Positions 31,585-51,021 of a stretch of 64,000 nucleotides of DNA are shown one piece after another. Source of the DNA: Aeromicrobium sp. Leaf245 (GTDB taxonomy: Bacteria > Actinomycetota > Actinomycetes > Propionibacteriales > Nocardioidaceae); assembly GCF_942548115.1 (NCBI RefSeq), contig NZ_OW824151.1, positions 1,178,001 through 1,242,000 of the forward strand, in the 5' to 3' direction. The notes beneath the pieces are model-generated. The model saw only the letters and a program-made list of their open reading frames with translations. It was not told the origin of the DNA and made no database searches. Numbering within the stretch: position 1 is the first letter of the stretch; each line of letters opens with the position of its first letter. A program made the position numbers and the translations under genes.

Positions 31585-32550
31585 GTGCAGATCCGTCGGG
31601 TGGACCTCGCAGACGACGAGCAGTACGCCGCGTTCCACGCGGTCTACGCCCGCAGCCACGCCGAACCCTTCGACGAGCCCTGGGGCATCGCGGAGAAGCG
31701 GACCAACCTCACCAGCGACCCCTACGCCGAGCACGTGGTGCTCGCCGGCGTCGTCGACGACGAGGTGGTGGGTGGGGCGTGGGTCTCCTTCCCCCAGCAG
31801 GACAACCGGACGCTCGCGTACCTGCACGTCTTCGTCGACCCTGGACGGCGTCGTGCCGGCCTCGGCAGTGCACTGCTGCGGGCCGTCGAGGATCGGGTGA
31901 GGGCCGAGGGTCGGGTCAACGCCTTCGCCGAGGCGTCGTGGTCGGTGCACGACGAGGCCGGCGCAGGGTCGGTGTTCGCCGCCCTGCACGGCTATCGCGT
32001 CGACCTGCTCGACGCGATCCGCGAGCTGCGCCTCCCGGCCGCGCCGCCTCAGGCGCCGTGGCGTGACGGGTACACCGCGGTCGCGTGGCGTCACTGCCCC
32101 GAGGAGTGGGTCGACCAGTACGCCGTGCTCCGCGCGCTCATCCTGGCGGAGGCCCCGTCGGGCGACGTCGGCATCGGGCCGGAGCACTTCGACGCCGCGC
32201 GGGTGCGCCACGAGGAGGCGCGGTGGCGCGAGCAGGGCCGTGTCGGACAGACGGTGGCGGCGGTCGCCCCCGACGGCACGCTCGCCGGGCACACCCAGCT
32301 CGTGGTGCCGGATCACGGCGAGACCGCCTACCAGTGGGACACCCTCGTGCTCCCGGCCCACCGCGGCCACGGCCTCGGTCTGGCCATGAAGGTGGCGGCC
32401 CTGCACGAGGCGGCCGACCTGCTCGAGGGTCGCACGCGCGTCACCACCTGGAACGCGGCCTCGAACACGCCGATGATCGCCGTCAACGAGGCCATCGGGT
32501 ACCGGCAGGTGGCGTGGGCGGCCGAGCTGGTGAAGGGGCTGGGCGGCTGA
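31585..32550 (+). CDS. Two-domain GNAT N-acetyltransferase
   Basis: 321-residue protein with two GNAT folds. The N-domain (1-~150) has the acetyl-CoA loop VFVDPGRRRAGLGSALL. The C-domain (~165-321) has LVLPAHRGHGLGLAMKVAAL and NAASNTPMIAVNEAIGYR. Mycothiol synthase also has two GNAT domains, but the sequence here does not show enough to call MshD, so the substrate is unknown. It converges with coaA across the 749-bp repeat region. Confidence 0.85.
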   Translation: MQIRRVDLADDEQYAAFHAVYARSHAEPFDEPWGIAEKRTNLTSDPYAEHVVLAGVVDDEVVGGAWVSFPQQDNRTLAYLHVFVDPGRRRAGLGSALLRAVEDRVRAEGRVNAFAEASWSVHDEAGAGSVFAALHGYRVDLLDAIRELRLPAAPPQAPWRDGYTAVAWRHCPEEWVDQYAVLRALILAEAPSGDVGIGPEHFDAARVRHEEARWREQGRVGQTVAAVAPDGTLAGHTQLVVPDHGETAYQWDTLVLPAHRGHGLGLAMKVAALHEAADLLEGRTRVTTWNAASNTPMIAVNEAIGYRQVAWAAELVKGLGG

Positions 32551-32569
32551 TCCTCGGCGTCGGTCGAGT

Positions 32570-32691
32570 CGTCGTCCGGGGCGTCCCGTGCCGTTGCTGC
32601 TGCGTCGTTCCGGATGGGCCTCGACCCGCGGCTGCGTTGCTCCGGCTGGGTCATGCCTTGCGGCTGCGTCGCTGTGGCTGCGAGTCGGGTC
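32570..32691. repeat. Left flank of hairpin element copy 1
   Basis: Degenerate repeats of CTGCGTCGCTGTGGCTGC type (for example near 32598, 32631 and 32663), about 31-35 bp apart. They continue the inverted symmetry of the element outward: the same motif, reversed, is at 33139-33195. No credible coding sequence is present. Confidence 0.6.
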
Positions 32692-33125
32692 GGTCTCCGA
32701 AAGGGCCTCGACCGGCGGAGGGGTCCGGGCTCGGGTGGGCTCTCGGAGCGTGGCTGGGGTGACGCAGGATTCTGCGTTCGTGCGTGAGGGGGCGAAGGAT
32801 GCTGCGTTCGTTACGGGATCCCGTCACCAACGCAGCATCGTTCGGGCTTCAGCACGCGAAGGCAGAATCCTGCGTCCGCCGGGGCGCCGGTGCGCGGGGG
32901 ATGGGCAGAGATTCTTCCTTCGCGTGTGACGGTCCACGAGAAGGGAGAATCCCTGCCCGTGCGGGGCCTCTTCTCGTCGCCACGATGCTTCCTTCGCGTG
33001 GCACGGTCCACGCGAAGGAAGGATCGTGCACTGATCCCGCGCAGAGGGAGAATCGTGGCCGCGCCCCGCAGACCCAGCCGAGCCGAGACCCCTCCCCTGC
33101 TCCGGTCGAGGCCCTTTCGGAGACC
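32692..33125. repeat. Hairpin-rich inverted-repeat element, copy 1
   Basis: A 434-bp non-coding element bounded by perfect 24-bp inverted repeats (32692-32715 starting GGTCTCCGAAAG; 33102-33125). Inside are three strong hairpins. A: 32761-32876, outer 15-bp arms GACGCAGGATTCTGC/GCAGAATCCTGCGTC, with inner palindrome ACGGGATCCCGT. B: 32903-32958, GGGCAG...CTGCCC. C: 32981-33028, CACGAT...ATCGTG with CTTCCTTCGCGTGG/CCACGCGAAGGAAG. A fourth half-arm is at 33030-33070. The same element, inverted, is at 48774-49205. It lies between convergent GNAT and coaA genes. There is no transposase and no obvious target duplication. Confidence 0.93.
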
Positions 33126-33299
33126 GCCCCGCCTCGTAGCCACGGCGACGCAGCCGCAGGAGAACGTGGAGCCACAGCGACGCAGCCGCAGCCGAGAGCC
33201 CGGCCGAGGTGTCGCAGCAGCAGGGAGGTCTCGGCCGGGCCGACTCACCCGCAGGACACGACCGGCCGGCCGCCGCACCCGCAGTCCGGCTCGTCCGGC
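33126..33299. repeat. Right flank of hairpin element copy 1
   Basis: Contains GCGACGCAGCCGCAG at 33146-33160 and 33178-33192 (32 bp apart), then a degenerate continuation up to the coaA stop. It mirrors the left flank in inverse orientation. There is no gene. Confidence 0.6.
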
Positions 33300-34241
33300 T
33301 CACATCTTGCGGAACCGCACCCACTTCACGGAGTGCTCGGCGCTCTTGCGCAGCACCAGGTCGGCGCGGCCGCGGGTGCTCTGGATGTTCTCGCGCAGGT
33401 TGGGCCAGTTGATCGTGTCCCACAGCTCCTCGGCGCGGGCTCGCGCCTCGTCGTCGGTGAGGCTGCTGTAGCGGTGGAAGTAGGAGGCGGGGTCGGCGAA
33501 CGCCGTGCGGCGCAAGGCCAGGAACCGGTCGACGTACCAGCGGCGGATGTCCTTGCTGGAGGCGTCGACGTAGATGGAGAAGTCGAAGTAGTCGCTCACC
33601 GACAGCCCGGGTGACCCGTCGCCGCGTTCCTTCGCCGGAGCGAGGACGTTGAGGCCCTCGACGATGACGATGTCGGGCCGCTCCACCACCACCGTCTCGT
33701 CGGTGCGGTCGTAGGTGAGGTGGGAGTAGACCGGCGCCGAGACCTGCTCGACGCCGGACTTGACGTCGATGACGAAGCGCAGGAGCGCCTTGCGGTCGTA
33801 GGACTCCGGGAAGCCCTTGCGCTGGAGGATGCCCCGACGCTCGAGCTCCTCGTTGGGCCAGAGGAAGCCGTCGGTGGTGACCAGCTGGACGCGCGGGTGG
33901 TCCGGTGACTGGGAGAGCAGAGCGCGCAGGAGCCGGGCGGTCGTGGACTTGCCGACGGCCACGGACCCGGCCACGCCGATGACGAACGGGGTGCGCTGGG
34001 GCTGCGGCTCCCGCAGGAACGACTCGGTGGCCTCCCAGAGCCGGGTCGCGGCACGCACCCGGAGGCTGATCAGCTCGGTGAGGGGCAGGTAGACCTCGCG
34101 CACCTCGTCGATGTCGAGCTCGTCGCCGAGGCCACGCAGACGCTCGACGTCGGCCTCGGTGAGCGGCTGCGGCACGTCGTCGGCGAGGTCGGCCCATGCG
34201 GACCTCTCGATCTCGACGTACGGCGAGAGCTCACGAGCCAT
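33300..34241 (-). CDS. coaA: Type I pantothenate kinase
   Basis: Phosphorylates pantothenate, the first step of CoA synthesis; 313 residues. ATG 34241 gives [19 protein letters not shown], matching actinobacterial CoaA. The P-loop is [34 protein letters not shown] and [13 protein letters not shown] are substrate-binding, and [10 protein letters not shown] and [19 protein letters not shown] complete the family. It is divergent from glmS across a 55-bp gap. Its 3' end faces hairpin element copy 1, which probably terminates it. Confidence 0.97.
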
Positions 34242-47366: not shown

Positions 47367-48680
47367 ATGCCACGCACGTCGGAGCCCAGGGCGCACGAGC
47401 GGCAGCACGACGTCGCCGTACCGGCGGGCTCCGACCCGGACTCCCTGTCGCGCTGGCTCCGCCGCGCGCACGAGGAGTTCCTGACCTCCGGCACCACCGA
47501 CGCGCCGGTGCGTTCGGTCGTGCGCGACTCCTGGAAGCGCAGCGTGGCCGGTGGCCTCGACCCCGAGACCGACCTGCCCCGCATCACGCTCGACGACGAG
47601 GCCCTGCGCGAGATCCGCGAGCACCACCCGCTGGCCCCCGGCCTGCCGGTCATCCGACGGCTGCTCGTCGAGAGCGCCGCCGACGCCGGGCTGCTCGTGG
47701 CGGTCAGCGACGCGGCCGGTCAGCTGCTGTGGGTCGAGGGGTCGTCGGGCCTGCGCTCCCGGGCCGAGGCGATGCACTTCATGCCCGGCGCCGACTGGAG
47801 CGAGACGAGCGCCGGTACCAACGCGCCCGGCACCGCCCTGGCGATCGACCGGCCCGTGCAGATCTTCGGTCCCGAGCACCTCGGGCGCCAGGTCACGCCC
47901 TGGAGCTGTTCGGCGGCTCCCATCCACGACCCCGACACCGGTGCGATCCTCGGTGTCCTCGACGTGACCGGCGGAGCCGAGGTGGCCACCGCGCAGGGGC
48001 TGGGCTTCGTCCGCGCGACGGCTGCGGCCGTGGAGGCGGAGCTGCGGATCGCCCGGCTCCAGCCGAGCGCGTCGCCGCTGCAGGTCTCGAGCGGCTGGTC
48101 CGCCCCCCGGCTCGACGTGCTCGGCGTGCACGGCGCCACCTTGCAGGTCGGTCCGCTCACGTCGCGGCTCAGCGGACGCCACAGCGAGCTCCTGCTGCTG
48201 CTGACGCGGGCGCCCGACGGGCTCACTGCGGCCGAGCTGGGCGTGGCGCTGAGCGACGACGACCAGGCGCCGGTCACCATCCGCGCCGAGCTGTCGCGCC
48301 TGCGCGGGGTGCTCGGGCCTCTCGAGCTGGCGTCGCGGCCCTACCGCCTGCGCACGGCCGTGCGCACCGACGTCGACGAGGTGCGCGACCTGCTGCGCGA
48401 CGGTCGGCTGCGCAGCGCCGTGGCGGCCTACCGCGGACCGGTGCTGCCGGCCTCCACCGCCCCGGCGGTCGAGGAGCTGCGCGACGACCTGCACCTCGAG
48501 CTGGTCTCGGCCCTGCTGGCCAGCGACGACGCCGACGCCGTCCTGTCGTTCGCCGACACCCCGCACGGTCGTGACGACCTCGGGGTCTGGTCGCGGGCGC
48601 TGGAGATCCTCCCGACGACGTCGCCCCGCTACGCGCAGGTCGCGGCCCACGTCGAGAAGCTCGACCGCGCGTTCGGCTGA
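47367..48680 (+). CDS. GAF-domain regulator, AcoR-like without AAA+ domain
   Basis: 437 residues from ATG 47367. Residues ~45-70 (VRSVVRDSWKRSVAGGLDPE) and the GAF domain (~85-235; DAAGQLLWVEGSSGLRSRAE, GADWSETSAGTNAPGTALA, GAILGVLDVTGG) match the N-terminal sensory half of AcoR-type regulators. The sigma-54 AAA+ domain is absent; a C-terminal winged-helix-like part (GLTAAELGVALSD ... IRAELSRLRGVLG) replaces it. It precedes the aldehyde dehydrogenase gene and probably controls it, as in other actinobacteria. Hairpin element copy 2 lies between them. Confidence 0.82.
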   Translation: MPRTSEPRAHERQHDVAVPAGSDPDSLSRWLRRAHEEFLTSGTTDAPVRSVVRDSWKRSVAGGLDPETDLPRITLDDEALREIREHHPLAPGLPVIRRLLVESAADAGLLVAVSDAAGQLLWVEGSSGLRSRAEAMHFMPGADWSETSAGTNAPGTALAIDRPVQIFGPEHLGRQVTPWSCSAAPIHDPDTGAILGVLDVTGGAEVATAQGLGFVRATAAAVEAELRIARLQPSASPLQVSSGWSAPRLDVLGVHGATLQVGPLTSRLSGRHSELLLLLTRAPDGLTAAELGVALSDDDQAPVTIRAELSRLRGVLGPLELASRPYRLRTAVRTDVDEVRDLLRDGRLRSAVAAYRGPVLPASTAPAVEELRDDLHLELVSALLASDDADAVLSFADTPHGRDDLGVWSRALEILPTTSPRYAQVAAHVEKLDRAFG

Positions 48681-48773
48681 GGGGGCGAGCTGCGGCTGGG
48701 TCTCCGCCCGCTGCTGCGTCGCTGTGGCTGGGGCTTCTCGTGCTGCTGCGTCGCTGTGGCTTCGCGTCGAGGT
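48681..48773. repeat. Left flank of hairpin element copy 2
   Basis: Two copies of CTGCTGCGTCGCTGTGGCT (48711-48729 and 48742-48760), 31 bp apart, and a degenerate third just after the regulator stop. It resembles the left flank of copy 1. Confidence 0.65.
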
Positions 48774-49205
48774 GGTCTCCGAAAGGGCCTCGACCGGAAC
48801 GGTGGGTCTCGTCCCGGCTGGGTCTGCGGGGCGCGGCCACGATTCTCCCTCTGCGCGGGATCCACGCACGATTCTTCCTTCTCGTGGACCGTGCCTCGCG
48901 AAGGAAGAATCGTGGCGACGCCCAGGGGCCACGCAGGAGCAGGGATTCTCCCTTCGCGTGGACCGTCACGCGCAAAGGGAGAATCCCTGCCCACCCGACG
49001 CGCGAACCGGCCCCGCGGGACGCAAGATTCTGCCTTCGCGTGCTCAAGCCCGAACGATGCTGCGTTGGTGACGGGATCCCGTAACGAACGCAGCATCCTT
49101 CGACCCCTCACGCACCAACGCAGAACCTTGCGTCCCCCCGAGCCGCCCTCCGAGAACCCAACCCGAGCTCGGACCCCGCCGCCGGTCGAGGCCCTTTCGG
49201 AGACC
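48774..49205. repeat. Hairpin-rich inverted-repeat element, copy 2 (inverted)
   Basis: 432 bp bounded by the same 24-bp inverted repeats (48774-48797 and 49182-49205), identical to those of copy 1. The interior is the reverse complement of copy 1: half-arm (48831-48861), hairpin C' (CACGATTCTTCCTT ... AAGGAAGAATCGTG), B' (GCAGGGATTCTCCC ... GGGAGAATCCCTGC) and A' (49019-49134). The 54 bp at 49049-49102 are the exact reverse complement of 32793-32846. It lies between two co-directional genes, so it is not only a convergent-gene terminator. Confidence 0.93.
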
Positions 49206-49400
49206 GACCCGACTCGCAGCCGCGGCGACGCAGCCGCAGGTCGAGGCCCACCCGCGAGAGCGCAGCCACGGGGAAGCCCCACCCACGGGAGCGCAGCCGC
49301 AGGGAAGGCCCACCCGAAGCGACGCAGCAGTGAGCGAAGACCCACCCGCGGGAACGCAGAGGCAGCCGACGACGCACCCCCCGGAGCGACGCAGCAGCGG
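49206..49400. repeat. Degenerate 31-32-bp array right of element copy 2
   Basis: GCAG-starting units begin at 49230, 49262, 49293, 49324, 49356 and 49391 (spacings 32, 31, 31, 32, 35). The consensus is roughly GCAGCCGCAGGGAAGGCCCACCC followed by GCGGGAGC-like sequence. Units are too diverged to be CRISPR repeats, and there are no distinct spacers. Confidence 0.7.
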
Positions 49401-49417
49401 TCAGGGCAACCACCCCG

Positions 49418-49440
49418 CAACGTCGACACAACGTCGTTGC
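49418..49440. promoter_or_regulatory. Candidate operator upstream of the aldehyde dehydrogenase
   Basis: GCAACG (49418-49423) pairs with CGTTGC (49435-49440), and inside it CAACG-T-CGTTG (49429-49439) is a perfect palindrome. It lies 58 bp before ATG 49498. It is a candidate site for the adjacent GAF regulator. Confidence 0.45.
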
Positions 49441-49497
49441 AACGATCCTGTGACTAGCGTCACGCCCACCTGATCCCACCCCCTCCGAGGAGCCACC

Positions 49498-51021
49498 ATG
49501 AGCGTGTTCGCCCAGCCCGGTACCGACGGTTCCGTCGTCACCTACAAGTCGCGCTACGACCACTGGATCGGCGGCGAGTACAAGGCCCCCGCGAATGGCC
49601 AGTACTTCGAGAACGTCTCGCCGGTCAACGGCAAGGTCTTCTGCGAGATCGCCCGCGGGACCGCCGAGGACATCGAGGCCGCCCTCGACGCCGCCCACGC
49701 CGCCGCACCCGCGTGGGGCAAGACGTCCGTGGCCGAGCGTGCCGTCGTCCTCAACAAGATCGCCGACCGCATCGAGCAGAATCTCGAGATGCTCGCTGTG
49801 GGCGAGACGTGGGACAACGGCAAGCCGGTCCGCGAGACCATGGCCGCCGACCTCCCGCTCGCCGTCGACCACTTCCGGTACTTCGCCGGCGCGATCCGGG
49901 CCCAGGAGGGCCACCTGTCGCAGATCGACGACGACACCGTGGCCTACCACTTCCAGGAGCCGCTGGGCGTCGTCGGCCAGATCATCCCGTGGAACTTCCC
50001 GATCCTCATGGCCGTCTGGAAGCTGGCACCCGCGCTGGCCGCCGGCAACGCCGTGGTCATCAAGCCCGCCGAGCAGACGCCGGCCTCGATCATGCTGCTG
50101 ATGGAGCTGATCGCCGACCTGCTGCCCCCGGGCGTCGTCAACGTGGTCAACGGCTTCGGCACCGAGGCCGGGGCCCCGCTGGCCTCCTCCAGCCGGATCC
50201 GCAAGATCGCCTTCACCGGCGAGACCACCACGGGTCGACTGATCATGCAGATGGCCAGCCAGAACCTCATCCCCGTCACGCTGGAGCTCGGTGGCAAGAG
50301 CCCCAACGTCTTCTTCGAGGACGTCGCGGCCAAGGACGACGCGTTCTACGACAAGGCGCTCGAGGGCTTCACGATGTTCGCCCTGAACCAGGGCGAGGTC
50401 TGCACCTGCCCGAGCCGCGCACTGATCCAGAACTCGATCCTCGAGCAGTTCCTGCCCGCCGCCACCGAGCGGACGAAGCAGATCAAGCAGGGCAACCCGC
50501 TCGACACCGACACGATGATCGGCGCGCAGGCCAGCAACGACCAGCTGGAGAAGATCCTCAGCTACTTCGAGATCGGCGTGCAGGAGGGTGCTCGCATCAT
50601 CACCGGTGGTGAGCGGGTGGACCTCGGCGGCGACCTGTCGGGCGGCTACTACGTGGCGCCGACGATCTTCCAGGGCCACAACAAGATGCGGGTCTTCCAG
50701 GAGGAGATCTTCGGCCCCGTCGTCTCGGTCACCGGGTTCGACGGCTACGACGACGCCATGAGCATCGCCAACGACACGCTCTACGGCCTCGGTGCCGCGG
50801 TGTGGTCGCGCGACACCAACACGGCGTACCGCGCCGGTCGTGACATCCAGGCGGGCCGCGTGTGGACGAACAACTACCACGCGTACCCGGCGCACGCGGC
50901 CTTCGGCGGCTACAAGTCCTCCGGCATCGGCCGCGAGAACCACCTGATGATGCTCGACCACTACCAGCAGACGAAGAACCTGCTGGTGAGCTACTCCAAC
51001 AACGCCCAGGGCTTCTTCTGA
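49498..51021 (+). CDS. NAD-dependent aldehyde dehydrogenase (AcoD/ExaC type)
   Basis: 507 residues from ATG 49498 (GAGGAG upstream). NAD-binding [32 protein letters not shown], catalytic Glu263 in [16 protein letters not shown] and Cys302 in [13 protein letters not shown]. The C-terminal [22 protein letters not shown] matches the acetaldehyde-dehydrogenase II group linked to ethanol or acetoin oxidation. A DUF779 gene follows and an AcoR-like regulator precedes it, the usual module. Confidence 0.95.

Follow-up and report, generated by a model that had tools for sequence, protein, structure and literature searches.

Palindromic intergenic insertions in Aeromicrobium whose copies resemble one another by lineage more than by place

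What kind of element fills the intergenic DNA at positions 32692-33125 of a 64,000-nucleotide stretch of the Aeromicrobium sp. Leaf245 genome (the window), and why does it recur in inverted form within the same stretch? The initial annotation had described a hairpin-rich unit with identical 24-bp ends, present twice, and had left its nature between a MITE-like non-autonomous mobile element and a structured RNA or DNA element. We analyzed the unit in the host genome carrying the window (G000; 3.46 Mb, single contig) and in related genomes, three of which (G005, G028 and G060) also carry it. We consider it probable that both copies are members of a non-autonomous, MITE-like family of palindromic insertions that has been homogenized in place by recombination.

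Anatomy of the two window copies

The two copies lie where they had been placed, copy 1 at 32692-33125 (434 bp) and copy 2 at 48774-49205 (432 bp), and all four 24-bp arms are identical (GGTCTCCGAAAGGGCCTCGACCGG). Copy 2 has the opposite orientation to copy 1, with 88.4% identity over the whole length, in agreement with the inverted interior described earlier. The exact reverse-complementary stretch reported between the copies also exists, although the longest one is 57 bp, not 54 bp (32793-32849 and 49046-49102). The central palindrome ACGGGATCCCGT is present at 32813-32824 and 49071-49082, and the hairpins are as strong as first supposed: single-strand folding of copy 1 gave z = -15.2, and none of 100 shuffles was equally stable. 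Gene calling found no gene inside either copy, and the GC content of the element is 68%. The features of the two regions are as follows.

31585-32550, + strand: GNAT acetyltransferase gene beside copy 1 (gene calls, Pfam)
32551-33299, no strand: intergenic region with copy 1, between convergent genes (gene calls, Pfam)
32598-32679, + strand: left 32-bp tandem repeats, copy 1 (18-mer matches with a 32-bp period: 32598-32615 and 32630-32647, 4 mismatches each; 32662-32679, 1 mismatch)
32692-32715, + strand: left 24-bp inverted repeat, copy 1
32761-32876, no strand: hairpin 1, copy 1, nested, centre ACGGGATCCCGT (self-inverted match, consensus fold)
32903-32958, no strand: hairpin 2, copy 1, GGGCAGAGATTCTTCCTT... 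(folds)
32981-33028, no strand: hairpin 3, copy 1, CACGATGCTTCCTTCGCGTGG... (self-inverted match, consensus fold)
33102-33125, - strand: right 24-bp inverted repeat, copy 1
33138-33187, - strand: right 32-bp tandem repeats, copy 1 (33138-33155, 33170-33187)
33300-34241, - strand: kinase gene beside copy 1, presumably coaA (gene calls, Pfam)
47367-48680, + strand: gene flanking copy 2
48681-49497, no strand: intergenic region with copy 2, between co-directional genes (gene calls, Pfam)
48712-48761, + strand: left 32-bp tandem repeats, copy 2 (48712-48729, 48744-48761, both exact)
48774-48797, + strand: left 24-bp inverted repeat, copy 2
48867-48914, no strand: hairpin 3, copy 2 (self-inverted match)
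48939-48992, no strand: hairpin 2, copy 2 (self-inverted match)
49019-49138, no strand: hairpin 1, copy 2, ACGGGATCCCGT at 49071-49082
49182-49205, - strand: right 24-bp inverted repeat, copy 2
49218-49235, - strand: right-flank repeat, copy 2 (3 mismatches)
49312-49329 and 49379-49396: weaker right-flank repeats, copy 2 (3 and 4 mismatches)
49498-51021, + strand: aldehyde dehydrogenase gene flanking copy 2

The last ~80 bp before the aldehyde dehydrogenase gene are native sequence common to G005. Hairpin 1 (~115 bp) also occurs alone, without end repeats, at seven G000 loci (L113, L118, L127, L132, L135, L136 and L151); at L113 only the hairpin is found in G000, and the relatives carry an element-bearing region of 686-766 bp.

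The 24-bp repeats had been taken for the ends of the element. They are indeed identical inverted repeats, but conserved sequence also lies outside them: on either side of each copy, tandem 32-bp repeats point inwards, and the whole unit occupies most of the intergenic region. The 18-base word TGCTGCGTCGCTGTGGCT recurs with a period of 32 bases, directed at the core from either side, in up to six consecutive exact copies, and none of its 75 occurrences in mapped loci (at most 2 mismatches) is farther than 355 bp from an end core (at most 3 mismatches). Across 84 aligned G000 ends, the signal among periods of 20-49 peaked at 32 (.423 versus a mean of.315), and information per base drops outwards from.86 to.51,.28 and.19 bits. 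As conservation continues beyond the 24-bp repeats, the initial annotation had seen only the centre of a larger element. A tandem duplication of the repeat-plus-end unit, 107-109 bp long, was observed near positions 1764297, 1972889, 3268897 and 1630593 of G000:C1.

Arrays of this kind could be binding sites for a species-specific protein acting in DNA uptake, segregation or nucleoid organization, with dialects that follow the protein as those of DNA uptake sequences do. The 32-bp spacing, about three helical turns, would suit such a protein; the period is also clear in G060 (.495 versus.339), with a fainter signal at 31-32 in G005 and G028. G005 and G028 share their repeat words, whereas G000 and G060 each have their own. 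However, the number of repeats varies between elements, conservation fades outwards, the end core is missing from G016 and G011, and no candidate protein was found, so that we regard a protein-binding array as highly unlikely.

A structured RNA, the other possibility raised at first, gained no backing from Rfam, with no match at the gathering score, or from wobble pairs, which showed no strand bias: on pairs found in both strand folds, summed over the four genomes, the ratio of G.U to A.C was 51:52. Equal loss to G.U and to A.C implies that what is maintained is the palindrome in DNA, or in both transcripts, rather than the fold of a single RNA. In the union of folds the ratios were 70:35 (G005), 87:61 (G028), 103:89 (G000) and 55:57 (G060), and the lean to G.U in G005 and G028 counts against this strand-neutral reading. 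A one-strand RNA was rejected as a candidate, since the G.U preference of the first consensus fold reflected ascertainment and the two classes were equal on strand-neutral pairs. Compensatory changes were few: 20 G000 copies showed them at 3 of 122 pairs, and a comparison of species consensuses at 2 of 34.

A family of insertions into intergenic gaps

The family extends well beyond the window, to 50 intergenic regions of G000 and to three related genomes. A search of G000 with copy 1 returned 194 matches, 20 of which cover 428-434 of the 434 query bases. The 18-bp end core (at most 2 mismatches) occurs at 85 sites in G000, compared with none for the reversed-order pattern, and at 101, 88 and 102 sites in G005, G028 and G060, respectively; none was found in G016 and G011, the next nearest genomes by the kinase gene. 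As G005 is a second single-contig genome carrying the family, an assembly artefact, a concern of the initial annotation, is spoken against. Among 57 other genomes (36 of the genus; G058, G059 and G061 stand outside this set), the copy 1 query matched two, G005 and G028, and G060 was added later as a third carrier. An exact 23-base core pattern, searched in genomes of 84,980 species in a set that may omit records near the window, was found only in Aeromicrobium sp. CnD17-E and the MAG LacPavin 72_22. Plasmid and phage searches gave no match to the element, the exact end core was not found in IMG/VR, and a literature search, mainly of open-access journals, yielded no paper that we recognized as describing this palindrome family.

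In G000, 58 places were mapped, and the 50 intergenic regions with an end core (at most 2 mismatches) comprise 26 convergent, 21 co-directional and 3 divergent sites, including the divergent site L145, which looks spurious. In G005, 61 gene-to-gene intervals became 58 sites after three elements split by a nested IS30 gene were merged, giving 19 convergent, 30 co-directional and 9 divergent sites. The background of 60 gene pairs in the window is 7 convergent, 46 co-directional and 7 divergent. Along G005:C1, no end core was among the matches listed between ~6400 and 482500 (476 kb), against a total of 101 over 3.63 Mb, which may point to depletion close to the beginning of the record. For annotation and assembly, the practical consequence is that large, repetitive intergenic regions are to be expected in this group.

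Relatives contain the corresponding empty sites. The kinase gene beside copy 1 was found in all 41 genomes of the genus, and 30 loci were fetched, 16 of which (including those of G016 and G011) were left out because of a different neighbour, a partial match or the lack of a GNAT gene in the locus. The convergent gap between the kinase and GNAT genes is 749 bp in G000, 707 bp in G028, 686 bp in G060 and 643 bp in G005, all with the element. Without it, the gap in ten other Aeromicrobium genomes is 6-231 bp:

G027, 6 bp
G014, 8 bp
G012, 15 bp
G029, 16 bp
G025, 61 bp
G034, 94 bp
G008, 99 bp
G015, 112 bp
G003, 124 bp
G020, 231 bp

The same pattern was seen elsewhere in G005. Among the 38 G000 sites not shared with G005, 9 had no usable locus, 8 had one flank and 21 had both flanks. 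Seven of these 21 are near-empty in G005, with 5, 26, 31, 50, 82, 116 and 144 bp. At four others, native intergenic sequence can be aligned next to the insert of G000, flanking it at L122 and L141 and lying on a single side at L119 and L160, leaving ~520-820 bp of extra sequence in G000; at L122 the G005 sequence runs unbroken across the insert point. At six sites G005 has element-like remnants that lack a good end motif (L114, L117, L123, L124 by eye, L130 and L157), and the remaining four (L110, L115, L121 and the site of copy 2) contain something else or are unclear. The elements have thus inserted into short gaps, in many cases behind the end of a gene, and we infer that G000 gained them at these sites rather than that G005 lost them. 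No target-site duplication was recognizable by eye in 12 comparisons, a weak test given old copies and diverged flanks.

The position behind genes also allows a reading that we hold to be quite unlikely, in which the hairpins are useful to the host as bidirectional insulators or terminators that block read-through, and selection keeps both palindrome and place. The convergent share in G000 (26 of 50, versus 7 of 60 window gene pairs) and hairpin pairs that hold on both strands are consistent with it. Yet the region of copy 1 (32400-33400) contains no terminator-like site (0.4 in shuffles), neither copy's intergenic region has a run of 4 T or A, and a GC-rich hairpin followed by a T run, the mark of an intrinsic terminator, was not found. 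The same gene pair stands with only 6-231 bp between its members in the ten other species, and at L122 and L141 a hairpin lies behind the gene in both species, with the insert placed after it (by eye). Moreover, 9 of the 58 G005 sites are divergent, and avoidance of promoters would give the same location bias to any insertion. Nor was the element recognized as a known terminator or REP family, which the initial annotation would have counted against its proposal: no terminator-like site and no Rfam family matched.

Lineage and place compared

Many copies remain at the same place in related species. Both flanking genes match between 12 of the 50 G000 sites and element sites of G005, and 32 of the 58 G005 sites were matched in partial locus sets of G028 and G060. 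For 20 G005 intervals neither flank was in those sets; a search of G060 with 19 of these, one of them being the IS30 gene itself, found 18 query pieces. This added 13 G005 sites with both flanks in G060, where the end motif is kept in 10 and the other three have gaps of 329, 456 and 122 bp. Flanking-gene DNA identity is 96.3% for G005-G028, 93.7% for G005-G060 and 86.6% for G000-G005. Orientation is the same in 28 of 31 same-site core pairs (12/12 for G005-G028, 10/12 for G005-G060 and 6/7 for G028-G060). Between G000 and the other species it is kept in 2 of 7 and flipped in 5; because only two keep it, some sites shared with G000 could be independent insertions.

To compare sequences, we used cores of 350-480 bp, 23 from G000, 34 from G005, 16 from G028 and 23 from G060. 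Mean identity at the same site was.825 (12 G005-G028 pairs),.807 (12 G005-G060),.797 (7 G028-G060) and.741 (7 with G000), against.803,.800,.791 and.735-.742 for other sites of the same species pairs. Within genomes the mean was.816 (G000),.803 (G005),.811 (G028) and.874 (G060). Third codon positions are.906 identical for G005-G028,.847 for G005-G060 and.723 for G000-G005; core identity lies below the third-position value in the first two pairs, indicating that the elements changed faster than silent sites there.

The phylogenetic tree of the cores agrees with these values. Same-site partners are far apart in 37 of 38 pairs, their common node spanning more than 5 tips; all but two of the 23 G000 cores (21) group in a single clade with support.88, and the species label changes 18 times, compared with a mean of 51 and a minimum of 44 in 300 shuffles. 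The G005 and G028 cores are intermixed, and the data from these two genomes alone could reflect a burst shortly before their split followed by fast change.

Similarity between copies is also patchy. The longest runs with at most one mismatch are 149 bp (G000), 113 bp (G005), 258 bp (G028) and 125 bp (G060), whereas 100 column permutations gave mean maxima of 45, 51, 52 and 90 and largest values of 62, 63, 73 and 117, respectively, so that the excess in G060 is slight (125 versus 117); the permutation ignores shared ancestry, and long runs may come partly from recent copies. Of the 24 longest tracts listed, 20 start and stop within the core, mostly with ordinary identity alongside. The copies are therefore more alike by lineage than by place and carry mosaic identical tracts. 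Tracts of this patchy kind would be the mark of gene conversion, with shared ancestry of some copies contributing, and sequence that tracks the genome line over place suggests that copies overwrite one another.

An unlikely alternative to such overwriting is ordinary transposition with turnover, in which newer copies insert in or beside old ones at preferred spots and likeness measures recency, with no conversion. Insertions do differ between species, several sites carry the 107-109 bp duplicated units, and at three G000 sites the counterparts in G005 appear to be arrays of another palindromic family; with 5 of 7 same-site cores flipped, turnover is possible for G000. In contrast, orientation is retained in nearly all same-site pairs among G005, G028 and G060, within-genome identity of only.80-.87 means that most copies are not young, and similarity comes in tracts that mostly end within the core. 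Transposition by itself does not account for the homogenization of copies in place.

Recombination between fixed copies, the reading we prefer, would work as follows. The element consists of nested hairpins framed by the 24-bp inverted repeats, with the inward-pointing 32-bp tandem repeats outside them, and both kinds of repeat would be putative binding sites for a recombinase provided in trans. That recombinase would formerly have copied the element into new gaps. Since then, homologous recombination (gene conversion) between copies may have replaced the sequence of one with that of another, which would keep the family uniform within a genome while it drifts apart between lineages. No host function of the element is assumed.

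Much more tentatively, and with considerable doubt, this process might amount to molecular drive: some fifty fixed palindromes would exchange sequence, and one dialect would sweep the loci of a lineage with place and orientation kept. The palindromes themselves might provoke the exchange, through breakage or template switching at extruded hairpins, and spread without a dedicated transposase. In eukaryotes, dispersed non-coding DNA is well known to evolve in concert; to our knowledge, bacterial examples other than gene families such as rRNA are rare. Four related genomes with dozens of same-place copies and distinct dialects make the rate of exchange and the tract length measurable.

Candidate mobilizers and related palindromic systems

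Among the end pairs listed for G000 and G005, none surrounds a candidate autonomous parent; one pair lies ~4 kb apart in G028. Three G005 end pairs 1.5 kb apart were rejected as parents, as each contains an IS30-family transposase gene nested inside the element. These three genes encode 100% identical proteins (G005:C1:642527-643552, 2337557-2338582 and 2826193-2827218). The gene is absent from G000 and G028, and because G005 has no further match to it outside elements, the element may be a preferred target of this IS30. No element sequence adjoins the 94% relative found in G060 (C4:285054-286076) or either of two distant relatives.

RAYT-driven mobility of the REPIN type was also set aside, with the Y1 transposase domain PF01797 in none of 8 genomes (5 of 14 in the control rings). 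We further considered SbcD as a candidate trigger of palindrome breakage. SbcD (TIGR00619) had no match in G000, G005, G028, G060, G016 and G011; across the 41 genomes of the genus, 26 matched, 13 of them over the cut-off, which leaves 15 without a match and 28 without one over the cut-off. Conversion driven by SbcCD was rejected, as SbcD was found neither in the four carriers nor in G016, G011 and others, and its absence is at most a permissive background. The family shows long palindromes persisting in genomes where SbcD was not found.

The comparison with MITEs holds in part. PMC10969869 describes bacterial MITEs as geneless, intergenic units with terminal inverted repeats of 4-30 bp, strong stem-loops and a gradient from full to broken copies. 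The present element resembles them in its 24-bp inverted repeats, its lack of genes, its intergenic position, its stem-loops and its full and broken copies, and the dispersal of copies and the empty sites also uphold the initial proposal of a MITE-like non-autonomous element. It does not fit in its outer ends, with tandem repeats outside the inverted repeats, in its GC content and in its homogenization in place, and neither a target duplication nor an autonomous partner IS was found. MITEs are typically below 500 bp; the core falls under this length at 434/432 bp, and the extra sequence at sites empty in the relative reaches ~520-820 bp.

REP elements offer a second comparison. They are 21-65 bases long and are targets of other IS, according to PMC1525189, and REP/REPIN elements with RAYT transposases are extragenic and palindromic, with inverted pairs and species-specific words (PMC3116915). 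The present element resembles them in its extragenic position, its palindromes, its inverted pairs, its species-specific words and its service as an IS target; it differs in its 434-bp composite core, which does not correspond to REP units of 21-65 bases in inverted pairs, and in the absence of a Y1 transposase from the 8 genomes tested.

Another palindromic family, consisting of GGTGGTCTCGATAC...CTCGACCAGC arrays, was observed in G005 where G000 has the element: at L278 (~1880-2985), L281 and L297, which lie next to the counterpart genes of the site of copy 2 and of the G000 sites L128 and L120, the last two with one flank only in the locus. GGTCTCGATAC has 12, 13 and 6 matches in L278, L281 and L297, respectively, and no exact match in the window. 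The arrays and the element have the words GGTGGTCTC and CTCGACC in common, which are end words of the 24-bp repeat, and differ in interior and unit length. Such palindromic arrays are probably widespread in actinobacteria. Five other Aeromicrobium genomes (G034, G008, G013, G015 and G003) have short hairpins of the type CGAGTGG(C/T)GC...GC(G/A)CCACTCG 3' of the kinase gene, as judged by eye.
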